From positions 1,372,001 to 1,436,000 of the forward strand of contig NZ_LR027880.1 of assembly GCF_900537995.1 (NCBI RefSeq): a stretch of DNA of 64,000 bases, written 5' to 3'. Positions within the stretch are counted from its first letter, which is position 1. Each line of letters starts with the position of its first letter. The position numbers and the translations under genes are program-made. A model generated the notes under the pieces. It did not search any database and was not told the origin of the DNA. It worked only from the letters and a program-made list of their open reading frames with translations. The DNA is from Roseburia intestinalis L1-82. Lineage in GTDB: Bacteria; Bacillota; Clostridia; Lachnospirales; Lachnospiraceae. Shown here piece after piece: positions 1,888 through 27,626 of the stretch.

Positions 1888-4800
1888 CTTTTTGCAATCA
1901 GAGTTTCCGGTTTTATCCACATTTGGTTGTCTGGCTGAAAAGTATTGTTTTTCGGATCCTAATTCATGCCTTATGAAATTGGGAATGATAGGGGAGAGCA
2001 TTGTTAATCTAATGTTTACTTATGACAGAATTCAATTGCCCTATGATAATACAGCAGTTACAAGAATAGATAATCTTCAAAGAGAAGGTTTGTTGACAAG
2101 GGATTTAACTGATATTTTACATGCTCTTAGAAAAGCCAGAAATAAAGCTGTGCATGAGAATTATGAGTCTGTATCAGAATGTAAAATCCTGCTTGAAATG
2201 GCATATAGTCTTTGTGAATGGTTTATGCAGACTTATGGGGATTGGAATTATCAGCACCATGATTTTGTTATGCCTAAATTAGAACATAAGAAAGTATCGG
2301 TTACACAGGAAGAAAAAGCTGCAGAAGAAAAACAAGTAGAAGAACTTACAAAACAGGCAGAACAAAAAGCAAGTATGGCTGATGCTATCTCCAAATCAGA
2401 GCGTCAGAAGCGGGCTGGTAAAATGGCAAGTCAGCGACCAAAATCAGAAGCTGAAACGAGATATATTATTGATGAGCAATTGCGTCAAGTAGGTTGGGAA
2501 GCAGATACAGAAAATCTGCGTTATTCTAAAGGAACTCGTCCGGCAAAAGGACATAATATGGCTATCGCTGAATGGCCAACAAATTCTACATTAGGACAGA
2601 GCGGACGTGTAGACTATGCGTTATTTGTTGATACTAAGTTGATAGGTGTTATTGAGGCAAAAGCAATACATAAGGATATTCCGTCTGTTATTGATTATCA
2701 GGGAAAAGAATATCCACGTAATATTCGTAAGGAAGATTCAAAGTATAAGATTGGAGAATGGGGTGAATATAAAGTACCATTTACTTTTGCAACCAACGGA
2801 AGACCATATTTAAAACAGCTTGAGACAAAGTCAGGAATCTGGTTTTTAGATTTGAGAAATCCTGTGAATAATCCGACAGCTCTTCATGGCTGGATGAGTC
2901 CTATGGGAATGATAGAATTGTTGGAGAAAAATCCTCAAGAGGGTAATTCCGCATTGAAAGCATTACCATATGATTTTCTTACAGATCCTAATGGATTAAA
3001 TTTGCGTGAATATCAGTTAAATGCTATTAAAGCGGCAGAACAGTCAGTTATTGAAGGAAAAAAGAATATTCTTTTGGCTATGGCGACTGGAACAGGAAAA
3101 ACACGTACTGTATTAGGTATGATTTATCGTTTTTTAAAGACGAACCGATTCAAGCGTATCTTATTTCTTGTTGATCGTACTTCTCTTGGAGAACAGGCTG
3201 CAGATGTATTCAAAGAAGTTAAATTGGAAGACTTAATGACACTTGATGAGATTTACAATATCAAGGGATTTGAAGAAAAAAATATTGATAAAGAAACCAG
3301 AATCCAGGTTGCTACTGTGCAGAGTATGGTTAAGCGTATTTTATATAATGACGGAGAAATTATGCCGGCTGTTACAGACTATGATCTGGTTATCATTGAC
3401 GAAGCACACCGCGGATATATTCTTGACAAGGAAATGGGCGACACGGAGATTTTGTATCGTGACCAGAGAGATTATCAAAGTAAATATCGAAGCGTAATTG
3501 AATATTTCGATGCGGTGAAGATTGCACTTACAGCAACACCTGCACTTCAGACGACAGAGATCTTTGGACAGCCTGTGTTTAAATATACATATCGGGAAGC
3601 TGTCATTGAGGGATATTTAGTAGATCATGATGCTCCGCATCATCTGGAAACAAAACTCAGCACTGGTGGAATTCACTACAAATCAGGTGATACAGTTATG
3701 ATCTATGACCCTGTGACAGGTGAAATTACAAATAGTGAATTGTTGGTTGATGAATTAGACTTTGATGTTGAACAGTTTAATCGTCAGGTTATTACTGAGA
3801 ATTTTAATAAGACAGTTTTAAGTGAGATTGCTCGAGATATTGACCCTGAGAATCCGGAAGAACAGGGTAAAACTTTAATATATGCGGTTGATGATCAACA
3901 TGCAGATATGATTGTATCAATTTTAAGAGATATTTATTCAAAATATGGAGTTTCTAATGAGGCTATTATGAAGATAACAGGCAGTGTTGGCGGTGGAAAC
4001 CCTAAGAAGGTTCAGGAAGCTATCAAATGCTTCAAGAACGAGAATTATCCAAGCATTGCAGTAACAGTAGATTTGTTGACTACAGGAATTGATGTGCCGG
4101 AAATTACAACATTAGTGTTTATGCGCCGTGTGAAATCGCGTATTTTATTTGAACAGATGTTAGGACGTGCTACCAGACTCTGTCCGAAAATTCATAAGAC
4201 ACATTTTGAAATATATGATCCTGTGGGTGTATATGATTCTTTGAATGATGTGAATACTATGAAACCAGTAGTGGTAAATCCTACAACAAGCTTTACTCAG
4301 CTATTAGATGGTCTGTCTGAAATTAATGATGATAAACAGACAGAACAGCAGATTACTCAGATAATTGCTAAACTGCAGAGAAAAAAACGAAATATGTCGC
4401 CTAAAATGATGGATTATTTCATTAGCATGACTGATGGAAAAGACCCATCGCAGCTTATTATGGAAATTGAAAAGTCAGATGTGCAGGAAGCTAAGAAGCT
4501 TCTGTTTAAATATCGTGATGTATTTAAAATGATGCAAGAGACAAAGGCAAATGGTTCTCGTCCTGTTGTAGTTTCTGATGCAGAGGATGAATTGACAGAA
4601 CATTCCCGTGGATATGGAAATGCAGAAAAACCAGAGGATTATCTGAATGCGTTCTCACGCTATATTCAGAGTAATCAAAATAAAATTGCGGCATTAAATA
4701 TTATCTGTACCAGACCAAAGGATTTGACAAGAAAAGATTTGAAGGATCTGAGATTAACACTTGATAGAGAAGGCTTTACTACACAGCAGTTGAATACTGC

Positions 4801-6576: not shown

Positions 6577-8072
6577 TGGATACAAAAGCATTAAGGCAAA
6601 AAATACTTGATCTGGCTATCCGTGGTAAACTTGTTCCACAGGATCCAAATGATGAACCGGCAGAGGTATTATTGAAACGAATCAGAGAGCAGAAGCAGCA
6701 GATGCTCAAGGAAGGTAAGCTCAAAAAAAAGGATATTAAAAATGATACAATTATCTTTAAAGGTGAGGATAATTTGCATTATGAGAAGTTCCAGGATGGA
6801 ACAGTGAAATGCATTGAGGATGAGATACCATTTGAAGTGCCGGAGGGGTGGTGTTGGTGTAGGCTTCCTGTTATTACAACAGACATTTTCGCTGGCGGAG
6901 ACAAACCTGATGTTTATGAAACATGTTTAACTGAAAGTTGTAAAATCCCAATCTATTCTAATGGAATGGAAAATGAAGGGTTATATGGATACACTAACAA
7001 ACCAAGAGTGACGGAACCAAGTATTACAATCTCTGCGAGAGGTACAATTGGCTTTTGTTGTGTAAGAGAAACCCCTTTTGTTCCAATTGTAAGGCTTATT
7101 ACAATTACTCCATCTAAGGAAATTAATTTATATTATTTAAAAACAGTATTTGAATCATTAATTGAAACAGGAGAAGGTTCTAGCATTCCTCAATTAACAG
7201 TCCCTGGAATAAAGCCTAAATTAATTCCTATTCCACCTGTTAATGAACAAATCAGACTTCAAAATAAACTAAATCAGATATTAAATTACATAGTAAACAT
7301 TTCTTTTGAAAAAGATGAATTACAAAATCTTTTACAAATTGTAAAGTCTAAAATTCTGAACCTGGCAATCAGAGGAAAACTTGTACCTCAAAATCCAAAT
7401 GATGAACCTGCTTCTGTTCTACTTAATCGAATACATGACGAAAAAGAAGAACTGATAAAGCAAGGTAATATCAAGCGTGATAAGAAAGAATCTGTCATCT
7501 TTAAAGGTGATGATAACTCTTATTATGGAATTTCTCTACCTACTGGTTGGAGTTGGACTATTTTGAAGGATATCTCTTTTTCAATTAGTGATGGCTCACA
7601 CAATCCACCATCAAACAAAGAATTCGGCGTACCACTACTGAGTGCTGCTAATGTAAATAACAATTCCATTCTAATCAATAATGCATCACGATGGATAACC
7701 AATGAAGAATGGGAGATTGAAAATCAACGTACAGATATTGAAATTGGTGATGTGTTACTCACCATTGTAGGCAGCATCGGTCGTAGTGCCGTCGTTGAAA
7801 CTAATGAGCATTTTGCATTACAAAGAAGTGTTGCCGTAATTAAGCCATGTTTGATAAGTCCTTTTTATTTGATGCGTATATTTCAAGCACCACAAATTCA
7901 AAAATGGATTAATGACAACAGCAAAGGAACAGCACAAAAAGGAATATACCTAAATGCACTATCCATAATGACTGTTCCTATTCCTCCATTAGACGAACAA
8001 CTTCGAATTGTTAAACAAATATCAATTTTCTTTGAACAACTTGATCTTATTTCGAGTTCTTTACTTTGCTAA
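6576..8072 (+). CDS. hsdS: Type I restriction specificity subunit (expressed copy)
   Basis: 498 residues. HsdS chooses the DNA sequence that the M and R subunits act on. It has the classic layout: a conserved N-terminal segment with DLAIRGKLVPQ, target recognition domain 1 (about 75-245), a central conserved repeat with NLAIRGKLVPQNPNDEP (about 265), target recognition domain 2 (about 325-480) and a short helical end. This is the only hsdS in the window joined to an hsdM and to a complete 5' end, so it is the expressed copy. Bases 6769-6862 and 7470-7527, just before each recognition domain, recur exactly and inverted in the silent copy at 9.5-10.9 kb, which marks it as the target of inversion. 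Confidence 0.95.
   Translation: MDTKALRQKILDLAIRGKLVPQDPNDEPAEVLLKRIREQKQQMLKEGKLKKKDIKNDTIIFKGEDNLHYEKFQDGTVKCIEDEIPFEVPEGWCWCRLPVITTDIFAGGDKPDVYETCLTESCKIPIYSNGMENEGLYGYTNKPRVTEPSITISARGTIGFCCVRETPFVPIVRLITITPSKEINLYYLKTVFESLIETGEGSSIPQLTVPGIKPKLIPIPPVNEQIRLQNKLNQILNYIVNISFEKDELQNLLQIVKSKILNLAIRGKLVPQNPNDEPASVLLNRIHDEKEELIKQGNIKRDKKESVIFKGDDNSYYGISLPTGWSWTILKDISFSISDGSHNPPSNKEFGVPLLSAANVNNNSILINNASRWITNEEWEIENQRTDIEIGDVLLTIVGSIGRSAVVETNEHFALQRSVAVIKPCLISPFYLMRIFQAPQIQKWINDNSKGTAQKGIYLNALSIMTVPIPPLDEQLRIVKQISIFFEQLDLISSSLLC
6769..6862 (+). repeat. 94-bp inverted repeat A, left copy
   Basis: These 94 bases in hsdS are identical to the reverse complement of 10813-10906. They encode the stretch from NLHYEKFQDG to the start of target recognition domain 1. 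The sequences diverge immediately on both sides, as expected for an inversion crossover that swaps whole recognition halves. Confidence 0.95.
7470..7527 (+). repeat. 58-bp inverted repeat B, left copy
   Basis: These 58 bases, in the central conserved part of hsdS just before target recognition domain 2, are identical to the reverse complement of 10154-10211. Recombination here would swap only the second recognition domain. Confidence 0.93.
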
Positions 8073-8115: not shown

Positions 8116-8925
8116 TTACCAAGTCACAATTTTATCAACTAGTTCCTGTTGTTCACTGGCAGTACGACGAAGATAAATACGAGTTGTCTCAATGCTTTCA
8201 TGCCCCATTAAGTCAGCAAGCAATGCAATGTCATTATACTTTTCAAGAAAGTTTTTTGCGTATCTATGTCGGAATGAATGAGGGTAAACCACCTTTTTAT
8301 CAAGTCCATATTTCTCGGCATAGTTTTTCAGTTGTTGTGAAATACCTCGTGTGGTAATTCTGTCGCCATATCTGTTTAGAAACAAGTAGCCGGAGGAACG
8401 ATGTGTTTTCTCCAGCCATTCAAGAGTTTCTTTCTTTAACTTTTTGGGTATATATAATCGTCGCAATTTTCCACCTTTGGTGTATAGGTCAAAATAGCCA
8501 ATTTCAATATGTTCAATCTTTATTTGAATGAGTTCGCTCACTCTTGCTCCTGTAGCTGCTAAATACCAAACTACAAAATACCATTCAATATTTTCATCCT
8601 TTTTGAGCTGTTTTTTAAGGAAATTGTAATCTGCATTGCTGATAACATTTTCTAAAAAGTTCTTTTGCTGCACCTTTACGGTCTTTAGCTGTAATTGCTG
8701 TTCTTCTAAATACTCCAAATATTTGTTTATCGCCTGTATACGCAGATTTACCGTTTTAGGCTTAAAGAATTCCATCAAATAACCTTTGTAGGCAAGCAGA
8801 TTATCTTTACTTACTGAGTCGTAATTCTCAGTGAAATAATTCGCTGTCCACAGATACGATGTAATCGTATTATCTGATAAATTCTCCTTTCTCAAGTATT
8901 CTTCAAATGTTAGTTTCGTCTTCAT
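8116..8925 (-). CDS. Tyrosine site-specific recombinase of the hsdS locus
   Basis: 269 residues, the XerC/XerD/phage-integrase family with a short SAM-like N-terminal core-binding domain. The catalytic residues are in the expected order: Arg in GARVSELIQI, Lys in KGGKLRRLY, His-x-x-Arg in PHSFRHRY, His in LMGHES and the nucleophile Tyr in TTRIYLR. GGAGGTG stands 8 bases before the ATG. It lies inside the region bounded by the inverted repeats, between expressed and silent hsdS. This is the layout of the invertases that shuffle hsdS in phase-variable type I systems (CreX/PsrA-like in streptococci). Its substrate is most likely the inverted sites described here, although resident Xer-like recombinases or RecA could also act. 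Confidence 0.92.
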   Translation of the reverse strand: MKTKLTFEEYLRKENLSDNTITSYLWTANYFTENYDSVSKDNLLAYKGYLMEFFKPKTVNLRIQAINKYLEYLEEQQLQLKTVKVQQKNFLENVISNADYNFLKKQLKKDENIEWYFVVWYLAATGARVSELIQIKIEHIEIGYFDLYTKGGKLRRLYIPKKLKKETLEWLEKTHRSSGYLFLNRYGDRITTRGISQQLKNYAEKYGLDKKVVYPHSFRHRYAKNFLEKYNDIALLADLMGHESIETTRIYLRRTASEQQELVDKIVTW

Positions 8926-10211: not shown

Positions 10212-10812
10212 TTTGCCTTGCAGTATCAGTTTTTCTTTCTCTGCACGAATACGCTCCAATAGTACAGAAGCTGGCTCCCCGTTTGGGGCTTGTGGCACAA
10301 GTTTGCCACGAATGGCAAGGTCGAGGATTTTGCTTTTAGCCGTAATAATATTTTTTTGTAAATCTGTTTTTTCTTGCTCAATCACTTCTATGATTTTTAA
10401 AGATTTGTCAATATTATTACCAATCCTATCTTGCTCTTGAGTTGGTGGAATTGGAACAAACACATTAAGTATATTTGCCACTGATAATCCAGGTTGTGCT
10501 GCTCCAGTTGCATACTTATTAAGCCGCAGAGCCTCTAAAATATAATTGCTCCATTTAAAATCAATTCCAACAAACAGGGTTGTAACTACTGCATGTTCTG
10601 TGGCATAGAACTTTCCAGTTGCAACATTAATGTTTCCACACAAAGCACCTTGTCTACCGACAATACTGAAAGTTCCATCTTGATTATATTCATCTACATA
10701 TCCCCTGATTCCATTGCCCCCGAAGCAAGGATAACTTCCCTCAAAATATTCTGATTTTATTTGATCAGCTGGTTTGGATTTTCCGGCTAACATCATACAA
10801 ATATCTCTTAAT

Positions 10813-10906
10813 CTACACCAACACCACCCCTCCGGCACTTCAAATGGTATCTCATCCTCAATGCATTTCACTGTTCCATCCTGGAACTTCTCATAATGCA
10901 AATTAT
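10813..10906 (-). repeat. 94-bp inverted repeat A, right copy
   Basis: Exact inverted partner of 6769-6862. It marks where homology of the silent copy to hsdS begins; everything upstream of it on this strand is unrelated. Confidence 0.95.
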
Positions 10907-10937
10907 TGATATGAGTAATAAGATATTGCCACTGAAA

Positions 10938-11005
10938 ATAAAAAGTGGAGTCCATGCATGGAACTCCACCGACTATGTGCCTCGCAAGCAACATAGCACA
11001 ACCAT
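10938..11005 (-). ncRNA. Small structured RNA, copy B (abiF-associated type)
   Basis: Read on the minus strand this is a roughly 65-base RNA. It begins near the conserved GGTTGTGC box, folds a hairpin with the stem CTATGT/ACATAG (10973-10996) and ends in a GTGGAGT/ACTCCAC-type hairpin (10945-10970) followed by a T-run, an intrinsic terminator. A second copy lies at 12026-12095. The middle stem differs between copies with compensating changes (CTATGT/ACATAG here, CTACGG/CCGTAG there), direct evidence that structure is kept. It lies between the abiF-like gene and the silent hsdS, with its own promoter. Structured RNAs next to abiF genes have been reported; membership of that motif is an inference here. 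Confidence 0.75.
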
Positions 11006-11008
11006 ATG

Positions 11009-11037
11009 TACATAACATCACAGAATAGGGATGTCAA
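11009..11037 (-). promoter_or_regulatory. Promoter of small RNA copy B
   Basis: On the minus strand TTGACA (11032-11037) and TATGTA (11009-11014) are 17 bases apart. The -35 hexamer and the spacing are the same as for copy A. Confidence 0.8.
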
Positions 11038-11059
11038 TGAACTCTTGGTAGATATTTAA

Positions 11060-11998
11060 CTATATTTTTCTGTATCGGCTAATTTTATCCCAGTTAGCAG
11101 GAAACCCCATATGATCAAGCAATTGTTGTTCTGTAAGATGAGGACACTGCTTAAGTACAGATTTTATAAGCTTTGAAAGAGCAGCCTTAAATTGTTTGAA
11201 TTCATCATTACTTATCAGATAGCGTAAAGCTATGACTACTGCGAATAAATCCTGCTTGCCATAAACATAATGATTATGGACTCTTTGTATTTGTAGTTTC
11301 TGGTGTAGCAGAGTATCAGGAATTGTCTCATTGATTTTAAATGAAAACAGGCGCTCTCCATGTGCACACACATTACGGCATTTACCAACAATATTGATAA
11401 ACTGATGCAGCTGCTTCTCTGAAATATGCTGGAAGTTTTTACTGATTTTGGCTCTGATATCAGTAGTTGCATATTGATACATTTTGGAGATTTGTCCAAA
11501 TGTCAAGGCATTGGTTGCAACCCATAATGGCACATTGTGATATGTATTGGCAGAATGCTCAATATAAGCATATTTGCTGGGTAATGAAATCGCTTTTTGT
11601 AATGAGTGAGTCAGGCGGATCAGGTCATGGTGGTTTTTTCGGGTATGATTGTAATTATTTATATCAAGATACATAGATTGCTGTTCTCCATATTTTTCAC
11701 AGAAGTGATAGGAAAACATGGATTTTATATGGCGTTCTACATGAAGAATATATTTCAAAAATATGGTACGCAGTTCTTCATCAAAGTAATAGAAAGCAAC
11801 TAATTCCTCAAAAGTAACACCATGAATATATTTATTTGATGGGGCATGTTTGAAAAGAGATTTGTATCCGCCTATTAGAGAGTAGTAGCTGAGTTCTTCC
11901 AGTTTTTTAGTGGCATATTCATGATCAGGAATAGCAAGCTGTTTATCATATTCAAGAGTATGTAGCTGCTGCTCATAGGTGAGAAAGTTTTTTGCCAT
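11060..11998 (-). CDS. AbiF/AbiD-like abortive infection protein (Abi_2 family, HEPN RNase)
   Basis: 312 residues of the Abi_2 family, phage-abortive-infection proteins related to lactococcal AbiD and AbiF. Visible family hallmarks are the N-terminal YSLIGGYKSLF, the segment GVTFEELVAFYYFDEELR, and the HEPN nuclease motif R-x4-H in KCRNVCAHGERL (Arg 208 to His 213). This predicts an RNA-cleaving toxin acting in the cytoplasm. The start is ATG 11998, preceded by GGAAA; an in-frame extension upstream is rejected because it runs through an RNA hairpin and terminator. A structured small RNA with promoter and terminator lies just upstream and another just downstream. This arrangement suggests an RNA-controlled toxin, like type III toxin-antitoxin pairs. 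Together with the neighbouring restriction system it makes a defence island. Confidence 0.88.
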   Translation of the reverse strand: MAKNFLTYEQQLHTLEYDKQLAIPDHEYATKKLEELSYYSLIGGYKSLFKHAPSNKYIHGVTFEELVAFYYFDEELRTIFLKYILHVERHIKSMFSYHFCEKYGEQQSMYLDINNYNHTRKNHHDLIRLTHSLQKAISLPSKYAYIEHSANTYHNVPLWVATNALTFGQISKMYQYATTDIRAKISKNFQHISEKQLHQFINIVGKCRNVCAHGERLFSFKINETIPDTLLHQKLQIQRVHNHYVYGKQDLFAVVIALRYLISNDEFKQFKAALSKLIKSVLKQCPHLTEQQLLDHMGFPANWDKISRYRKI

Positions 11999-12025
11999 AT
12001 AGTATTTCCTTTCTGAAACAGGCAT

Positions 12026-12095
12026 AAAAAAAGTGGAGTCCACGCATGGAACTCCACCGGCTACGGGCATCACAAGTTTCCGTAGCACAACCACT
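12026..12095 (-). ncRNA. Small structured RNA, copy A, directly upstream of the abiF-like gene
   Basis: On the minus strand, about 70 bases. It has the conserved GTGGTTGTGC box, a hairpin with stem CTACGG/CCGTAG (12061-12085) and a terminator hairpin (12033-12058) followed by seven T, ending 27 bases before the abiF-like start codon. The order RNA, terminator, toxin gene is that of RNA antitoxins: most transcripts would stop after the RNA and a minority would read through into the toxin. Near-identity with copy B except for paired changes in the stem supports a selected structure. Confidence 0.8.
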
Positions 12096-12101
12096 ACGAA
12101 T

Positions 12102-12130
12102 AATATACCATTGGTATCCTGTGATGTCAA
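12102..12130 (-). promoter_or_regulatory. Promoter of small RNA copy A and the abiF-like gene
   Basis: TTGACA (12125-12130) and TATATT (12102-12107) on the minus strand, 17 bases apart: close to consensus. No other promoter is visible between here and the abiF-like gene. Confidence 0.85.
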
Positions 12131-12473
12131 ACAGTATTTTTGGTAGTGGCATTAATAGTTTATGCGTTTCTGTGTGTAATATTCTTACTTTGTTCGGATT
12201 TGGCGTTCAGCCATTTTTCTTTATATTCCAGTGCTTTTTCAGGCTTGTGCCATCTGGCATACAGCATAATATTTGAAAAAAACACAGCATTATCATAACA
12301 AAACATAGTCTGACATCCGCACTCTTACCCATCGCCCCGCCAACAAACTGGAAATATCTACTTGTAGAATCGCACATCATCCTCTGTTACAATGCAGATA
12401 CGTCAAAATGAAACAAGTATGTAATATTTACTTAACAAAAAGTAAATATCTGTAAATGGAGGATTTCTACATA
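12131..12473. other. Gap between the defence island and the NlpC/P60 gene
   Basis: About 340 bases without a convincing gene. A 35-codon frame on the minus strand (12160-12267) has no ribosome site. Overall this looks like an island boundary; no repeat or attachment site is visible. Confidence 0.5.
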
Positions 12474-26700: not shown

Positions 26701-27014
26701 GAGTTTCCCTGTGTAGGGTGGTTCTGGGGAGTTACGATTGGCAAATTGCATCAAGCCGGGACTGTTTTGTTCCGTTGTCCGAAAATAAGAAAGTCTAAGT
26801 ATGCCTGATTCAGGTTGAGGCGGAGTGACGTGTGCGTCCTAAATGTGCCGTCCGGGCACATTAGGACTTGTGCTGCCGTCCATGGCAGCACAACACTGTA
26901 TTGTGAACAGGCATACAAAGACTTTCTAATTTTCTCCCAAAGTCACAAAACGAGTCCTGGCTTGATGCGATTTGCCAGCCGCAAGGTTGTGAACCACCCT
27001 TAGCCGGGAAACTC
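26701..27014. repeat. Giant imperfect palindrome, element 1
   Basis: 314 bases bounded by GAGTTTCCC and GGGAAACTC. The two arms pair over roughly 125 bases each, at about three quarters identity. The pairing includes GGCAAATTGCATCAAGCC near 26740 with its partner near 26978, and AGTCTAAGTATGCCTG with CAGGCATACAAAGACT. At the apex are two perfect hairpins, 26836-26867 and 26869-26892, whose loops read GGAC on the minus strand. The inner 200 bases are homologous to the reverse complement of element 2, including a 28-base exact match (26921-26948 region). Nothing in it codes. It could be a large structured RNA, a folded DNA site or a MITE-like mobile element. Confidence 0.85.
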
Positions 27015-27295: not shown

Positions 27296-27626
27296 TGAGA
27301 TGAACCGCCCACCCAAATGGTGTTTCATAACCTGGAGGCTGGCATCTTGCGCAAAGCCTGAGCTGATTTTGTGACTTTGGGAGAAAATTAGAAAATCTTA
27401 GTGTGTCTGTAGATACACAGTGATGTTCTGCCACGGATGGCAGAACAAGGCTTCACGAGCCACGGATGGCTCGTTGAACGCCGGTCACGTCACTCCGAGA
27501 AAATCTAACTCAGACACACTTAGACTTTTCTTATTTTCGTACAATGGAACCAAAATTAACTCCGGCTTTGCGCAAGATGCCACTCACAGACCTGCGACAC
27601 ACCATTGGGACGGGCGATTTATTTCA
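27296..27626. repeat. Giant imperfect palindrome, element 2
   Basis: 331 bases in the opposite orientation to element 1. The arms TGAGATGAACCGCCC and GGGCGATTTATTTCA close it. Inside, GGCATCTTGCGCAAAGCC near 27340 pairs with its partner near 27565. The apex carries two perfect hairpins, 27425-27446 and 27455-27474, each with the loop sequence CCACGGATGG. The outer stems differ from those of element 1 yet remain paired, so changes have been compensatory. The right end lies about 165 bases before the gapA promoter. Confidence 0.85.

Follow-up and report, generated by a model that had tools for sequence, protein, structure and literature searches.

The 64,000-nucleotide stretch of Roseburia intestinalis L1-82 analyzed here (contig NZ_LR027880.1, positions 1,372,001 to 1,436,000; hereafter the window) contains on its minus strand a putative toxin gene, abi, encoding an Abi_2 protein, which lies between two short structured RNA units that we call RNA B (upstream) and RNA A (downstream). 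Reading along this strand, the order is a promoter, RNA B, abi, RNA A and then an inverted hsdS cassette (Table 1). Both RNA units lie where the original prediction, made from the sequence alone, had placed them.

Table 1. Features of the abi locus and its flanking RNA units (window coordinates).
Feature	Position	Strand	Description
abi gene	11060..11998	-	312 aa, ATG at 11998, stop at 11060; Abi_2 / AbiD-AbiF family HEPN protein
RNA B, leader upstream of abi	12023..12098	-	5' AGTG, hairpin, intrinsic terminator; R1 86 bits, fold, covariation
RNA B promoter	12102..12130	-	TTGACA (12130-12125), 17 nt, TATATT (12107-12102); 11/12 consensus bases
RNA B intrinsic terminator	12032..12058	-	attenuator position, separating RNA from abi start
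RNA A, second copy of the R1 family, downstream of abi	10935..11009	-	R1 49.3 bits, E 2.2e-12 in genome
RNA A promoter-like site	11009..11037	-	TTGACA (11037-11032), 17 nt, TATGTA (11014-11009); read from sequence
RNA A intrinsic terminator	10944..10970	-	faces the inverted hsdS cassette
Inverted repeat, 7 bp	12091..12149	-	CCACTAC 12149-12143 / GTAGTGG 12097-12091; brackets the RNA B promoter

The abi product is a member of the AbiF family by every test that we ran. Its Abi_2 domain scored 153.8 bits against a curated cut-off of 25.6, the protein showed the PbAbiF fold in a fold test, and its R208-x4-H213 aligns with the R and H of the PbAbiF structure 8vz6. The HEPN R-x4-H motif had been predicted at residues 208-213, and both of these residues proved invariant in the aligned relatives (27/27 and 51/51 alignment rows). 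Only one Abi_2 gene was found in the whole genome, the one between RNAs B and A. No relative of the protein was encoded in viral contigs, though two stretches there matched a protein pattern. The gene probably encodes an RNA-cutting toxin related to Cas13.

An RNA model, R1, was built from 28 of 36 distinct leaders of abi relatives, including RNA B and excluding RNA A. Searched against the 4.49-Mb genome (E ≤ 0.01), it matched in two places only, RNA B (E = 1.2e-24) and RNA A (E = 2.2e-12). Both RNAs fold better than shuffled sequences (z -3.32 for RNA B and -3.38 for RNA A, with 0 and 2 of 200 shuffles, respectively, matching them). Three pairs of stem 1 differ between the two copies and all are kept, through double-sided changes of C-G to U-A and G-C to U-A and a one-sided change of G-C to G-U, which bears out the compensatory hairpin changes that had been proposed. 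The intrinsic terminators expected on each unit were found by a scan on both, being the only two found (0.7 expected, standard deviation 1.0), and the terminator pattern with up to three mismatches matched twice genome-wide and never in the backward control. The TTGACA-N17 promoters were upheld in part: that of RNA B is good (TTGACA-17-TATATT), and in RNA A the -35 and the spacing are perfect and the -10 is poor. The region has no excess of promoter-like sites over chance (5 against 6.9 expected).

The 28 leaders of relatives could be aligned without structure information, and RNAalifold on these sequences gave two hairpins with changes on both sides in 14 of 17 pairs. An alignment fitted to the model, with 97 distinct rows, shows pairing in 95.9% of its cells and double changes in 360, against 107 on average in shuffles and at most 65 with slid structures. 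Among RNA-bearing loci, the set of 95 sources omits L012 and L013, which nearly duplicate L011, and further copies of loci already included. A GGTTGTGC box, put forward as conserved, is present in the near clade and is not conserved family-wide; what is fixed instead is AGTG at the 5' end, a stem of 7 bp, a loop of 13 bases containing CTTGnGAnGC, and the terminator hairpin.

The inverted repeat that brackets the RNA B promoter was also followed in relatives. A CCACTA/TAGTGG-type repeat of at least 6 nt was seen at 22/46 leaders of intact abi genes (3/46 in a control stretch), at 6/14 copies with broken abi and at 0/26 toxin-less copies (control 3/26). The arms vary together between clades, and phylogeny confounds these counts across locus classes.

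A search with the Rfam abiF model, which had been suggested as a check, did not identify the RNAs: at E ≤ 10, RF03085 matched neither in 10800-12300 nor anywhere in the genome, and no Rfam family matches RNA A or RNA B. In 14 control genomes RF03085 gave weak matches in six, none above its cut-off. R1 itself was found in 85/299 genomes of a sample of the bacterial family (E ≤ 0.01), with 1-4 matches per positive genome, and in 15/62 genomes within the genus (1e-4). In the order it occurred in 32/344 genomes (1e-6), 25 from the same family and 7 from two other families, and in the phylum sample in 3/348, all three from the same family.

R1 is closely tied to the near relatives of abi. The family sample gave 36 abi matches at E ≤ 5.1e-59; the RNA lies directly upstream in 34 and only downstream in one (G190), while one gene starts at a contig edge, leaving 34 of 35 testable relatives with R1 upstream. 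More distant abi genes are usually without an R1 RNA. RF03085-type RNAs were seen beside distant Abi_2 genes in seven genomes (G012, G293, G098, G328, G141, G042 and G188), only two of them above the Rfam cut-off; among 11 RF03085 matches, two are above this cut-off and two have no nearby abi (L162, L164). In the toxin tree, 58 R1-linked proteins stand on one side of a branch with 100/99 support and nine RF03085-labelled proteins on the other. Long branches meet in this tree, and the label of L168 rests on a weak match (24.7 bits) that is absent from a second RF03085 listing. Because the tree separates the two groups, the class of RNA and the clade of toxin correspond to each other. R1 and an RF03085 case (G328 at least) are found inside a single bacterial genus.

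R1 copies also occur without a toxin. In the family sample, 73 copies scored 38 bits or more. An abi gene detected with P0001, intact or partial, lies behind 38 of them and ahead of 3; six have abi fragments (L094, L102, L103, L104, L113, L114), two lie at contig ends (L097, L105), and 24 are traceless, with no abi at E 0.001 within reach, L096 among them showing a short abi-like start by eye. These 24 strong copies weigh against a toxin-antitoxin role, and they agree in part with the outcome that the original prediction had set against itself, hairpin units spread randomly without abi genes. We also examined a wider set of 125 places, which combines protein-found loci (L008-L027, L060) with R1-found loci, drops the duplicates L075, L088 and L134 and omits several family matches. 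Here 59 copies lie before an intact abi, 20 before a broken or partial one and 34 have none; L113 among these 34 carries an abi fragment, and L189 (abi 1.5 kb away) was counted separately.

Such copies could mean that we are dealing with an independent element, either mobile or serving the host in some other way, which often settles before defence genes and whose link to abi is secondary. Some of them precede other toxin-antitoxin genes, namely a zeta toxin (L095, L106) and a nucleotidyltransferase pair (L111). We regard this as improbable given the upstream RNA of nearly all close abi relatives and the grading of loci from intact through broken to absent abi. In addition, toxin-less copies have slightly more broken pairs and fewer good promoters, as expected after toxin loss: they keep 77 of 91 changed pairs (14 broken), compared with 88 of 92 (4 broken) in linked leaders and 19% for random single mutations, and 15/26 have a good promoter, compared with 41/46 linked copies. 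The pair test on toxin-less copies indicates mild relaxation and is no proof of selection; the sequences may have diverged to a large extent before the toxin was lost. Since these copies are few per genome and grade into broken-abi loci, we read them as probable leftovers and not as a refutation: they fit RNA antitoxins that would have outlived their toxins and then slowly relaxed. A protective role of solitary R1 copies is possible.

Recombination between RNAs B and A was considered as a source of toxin-less copies and found no support: the hybrid-like L112 is homologous to the L022 leader only (135 nt). No shared partner gene was seen by eye among the genes listed behind toxin-less copies. 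In L095 and L106, whose genomes are from different genera, a toxin-less R1 RNA opens a shared module with a small open reading frame (by eye), with 88.6% identity over 887 nt; that of L095 contains a zeta-toxin-like gene (Pfam PF06414), and the RNA is no more conserved than the rest of the shared module. In L111 a toxin-less R1 RNA (2470-2545, minus strand) is followed after 51 nt by a gene pair for a nucleotidyltransferase and an NTase_sub_bind protein, which we take to be of the HEPN/MNT toxin-antitoxin type.

The locus was then compared with known systems. PbAbiF/AbiFr of a Prevotellaceae bacterium (PDB 8vz6) shares the protein family, the fold, the R-x4-H (R210/H215 in PbAbiF) and an upstream RNA (PMC12373285, PMC12737573), whereas PbAbiF is only about 20% identical to the abi protein, and the passages on it in these two papers make no mention of a flanking second RNA gene. 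PMC12373285 describes PbAbiF as dimeric, in a complex of two protein chains and two copies of the RNA. The AbiFCd/RCd22 locus of a C. difficile phage likewise has a SigA promoter, an RNA and a terminator before a toxin gene with a HEPN RNxCAH motif, and two RNA motifs per locus, as in the window; RCd22 is described there as an RNA antitoxin in cis and in trans, with attenuation shown (PMC12373285). In contrast, AbiFCd is 27% identical to the abi protein, and RCd22 carries its two RF03085-like motifs in one RNA (cmscan found one of them, at 37.6 bits), whereas the window has separate units on either side of abi without an RF03085 match. A tandem arrangement like that of the two-motif RCd22 was seen in one relative, L035 (G084), with R1 RNAs at 245-309 and 313-387 before one abi gene. 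The Rfam RF03085 abiF RNA is similarly a short hairpin RNA beside Abi_2 genes, but its internal loop lies on the opposite side of the stem, its loop sequence differs and its toxins fall elsewhere in the tree.

The type III systems ToxIN, TenpIN and CptIN have one promoter, an antitoxin RNA, a terminator and then a ribonuclease toxin (PMC5086642), and the same order on one strand was found in the window. They differ in their tandem RNA repeats and ToxN-fold toxins, where the window has a HEPN toxin and single-copy hairpin units; no tandem antitoxin repeats were found at the locus, which has one hairpin unit upstream and a second only behind abi. In its way of working the locus would thus resemble type III, as an AbiF-type system with an RNA antitoxin. 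A Cas13-like system in which RNAs A and B would direct the HEPN nuclease to its targets is, by comparison, extremely improbable, there being only one Abi_2/HEPN domain in 312 aa and no variable guide part in the RNA. Another alternative is that the RNA is purely a cis-acting attenuator or sensor of the toxin gene that binds no protein. This would agree with RNA B and its terminator lying exactly between promoter and gene, and with an RNA before intact abi in 59 of the 125 places. However, copies behind abi or without it, useless to a pure attenuator, retain hairpin 1 and the loop; RNA class tracks toxin clade; and abiF RNA binds its toxin and acts in trans, according to the account in PMC12373285. 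We consider a pure attenuator unlikely, though less so than an independent element.

We therefore favor, with a probability of about 0.72, an AbiF-type toxin-antitoxin unit in which the abi product is a HEPN ribonuclease toxin, RNA B its antitoxin and attenuator, and RNA A a second module. The RNA-controlled toxin of the original prediction is supported in part by this, as the RNAs are not the Rfam abiF RNA and the independent transcription of RNA A is doubtful. In the unit as we picture it, the toxin would act as a dimer, and the flanking RNAs probably hold it in check. RNA B would be transcribed from its strong sigma-70 promoter and mostly halted at its own terminator before abi, so keeping toxin transcription low (attenuation, by analogy with C. 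difficile RCd22), and would bind and block the toxin. The toxin mRNA would arise by read-through of this terminator. RNA A would form the 3' end of the read-through mRNA and/or be a product of its own weak promoter, with its terminator ending the transcript ahead of the inverted hsdS cassette, and the layout would thus give two RNA modules per toxin message, one at each end. If a phage, for instance, stopped transcription, the short RNA would disappear before the toxin did, leaving the toxin unblocked.

Several observations count against the part assigned to RNA A. A downstream copy is present at only 7 of 59 loci with intact abi (the window, L008, L060, L009, L017, L044, which has a downstream copy only, and L054, where it is degenerate), and the downstream sequences are unequal in length. 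The window, L008, L060 and L009 form one close clade of at least 90% identity, and L010, 86% identical, lacks the copy; RNA A is therefore dispensable. Its -10, TATGTA, matches at 3/6 positions with a TG before it, and the site is absent from the promoter-scan list, making independent transcription doubtful. RNA A also carries ATATGG in place of AGTGG, and its loop is one base shorter than that of RNA B; L022 and L112 share this loop shape, T-TGCTTGCGAGGC, and the loop of L116 resembles it.

RNA A might accordingly be a leftover or a by-product of recombination, a toxin-orphaned copy or duplication that is now drifting and provides no working second antitoxin. We give this tentative alternative somewhat less than even odds. 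Besides the poor -10, the missing AGTG and the altered loop, it is favored by the strict promoter, which is present in 1/6 downstream copies as against 41/46 leaders of intact genes, by the degenerate downstream relics of L011/L012 (below the R1 threshold) and L054, and by the frequency of toxin-less R1 copies. On the other hand, comparison of RNA A with its nearest linked leader shows three changed stem pairs kept and none broken, where a random single mutation keeps 19%, and each of the four loci sharing 90% identity or more has RNA A, even though their flanks differ. In L009 a gene for a DDE transposase lies between abi and RNA A, and in L060 other DNA follows RNA A (by eye). L017 and L044 have downstream copies as well, and so, with RNA of the RF03085 type, does G012 (L167), where RNAs at 1501-1549 and 2527-2563 (30.8 and 42 bits), with compensated stem changes, flank a distant Abi_2 gene. 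Because copies flank abi there too, with RNA of the other type, the RNA-toxin-RNA layout arose more than once.

The neighboring region is a shuffling type I restriction specificity locus. A perfect 94-nt inverted repeat (10813-10906 with 6769-6862) lies between two hsdS genes, as does a gene of the phage integrase family (8116-8925), and hsdS and integrase domains were found. The RNA A terminator is about 30 nt outside this repeat. The prediction had attached importance to this neighbor, which is real but probably incidental to the abi unit, since in L060 abi with its two RNAs continues into other DNA (by eye). Elsewhere in the window there are two TwoAYGGAY RNAs about 430 nt apart on opposite strands (26774-26941, minus, 131.8 bits; 27376-27545, plus, 137.2 bits).

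The literature searched contained no listing of R1 RNA or of flanking RNA pairs; according to PMC12804078, a 2025 Cell paper on AbiF (Zilberzwige-Tal et al.) has covariance models of its own for AbiF RNAs. R1 RNA is new relative to Rfam and the searched literature and may be covered by those models. On a bolder view, which we hold to be rather unlikely, R1 would be a second class of AbiF-family antitoxin RNA, distinct from the Rfam abiF RNA, that evolved with its own toxin clade. It would be placed deliberately at both ends of the message, an arrangement also reached with RF03085-type RNA, and solitary copies would persist once the toxin is lost, serving as anti-addiction RNAs that shield the cell against incoming AbiF toxins. 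AbiF has been proposed as the ancestor of Cas13, and its RNA as that of the guide. Having within one genus a toxin clade whose antitoxin RNA differs is a natural experiment on changing RNA recognition. With the toxin-less copies and the RNA-toxin-RNA layout, one can test whether there is a reason for RNA antitoxins to outlive their toxins.
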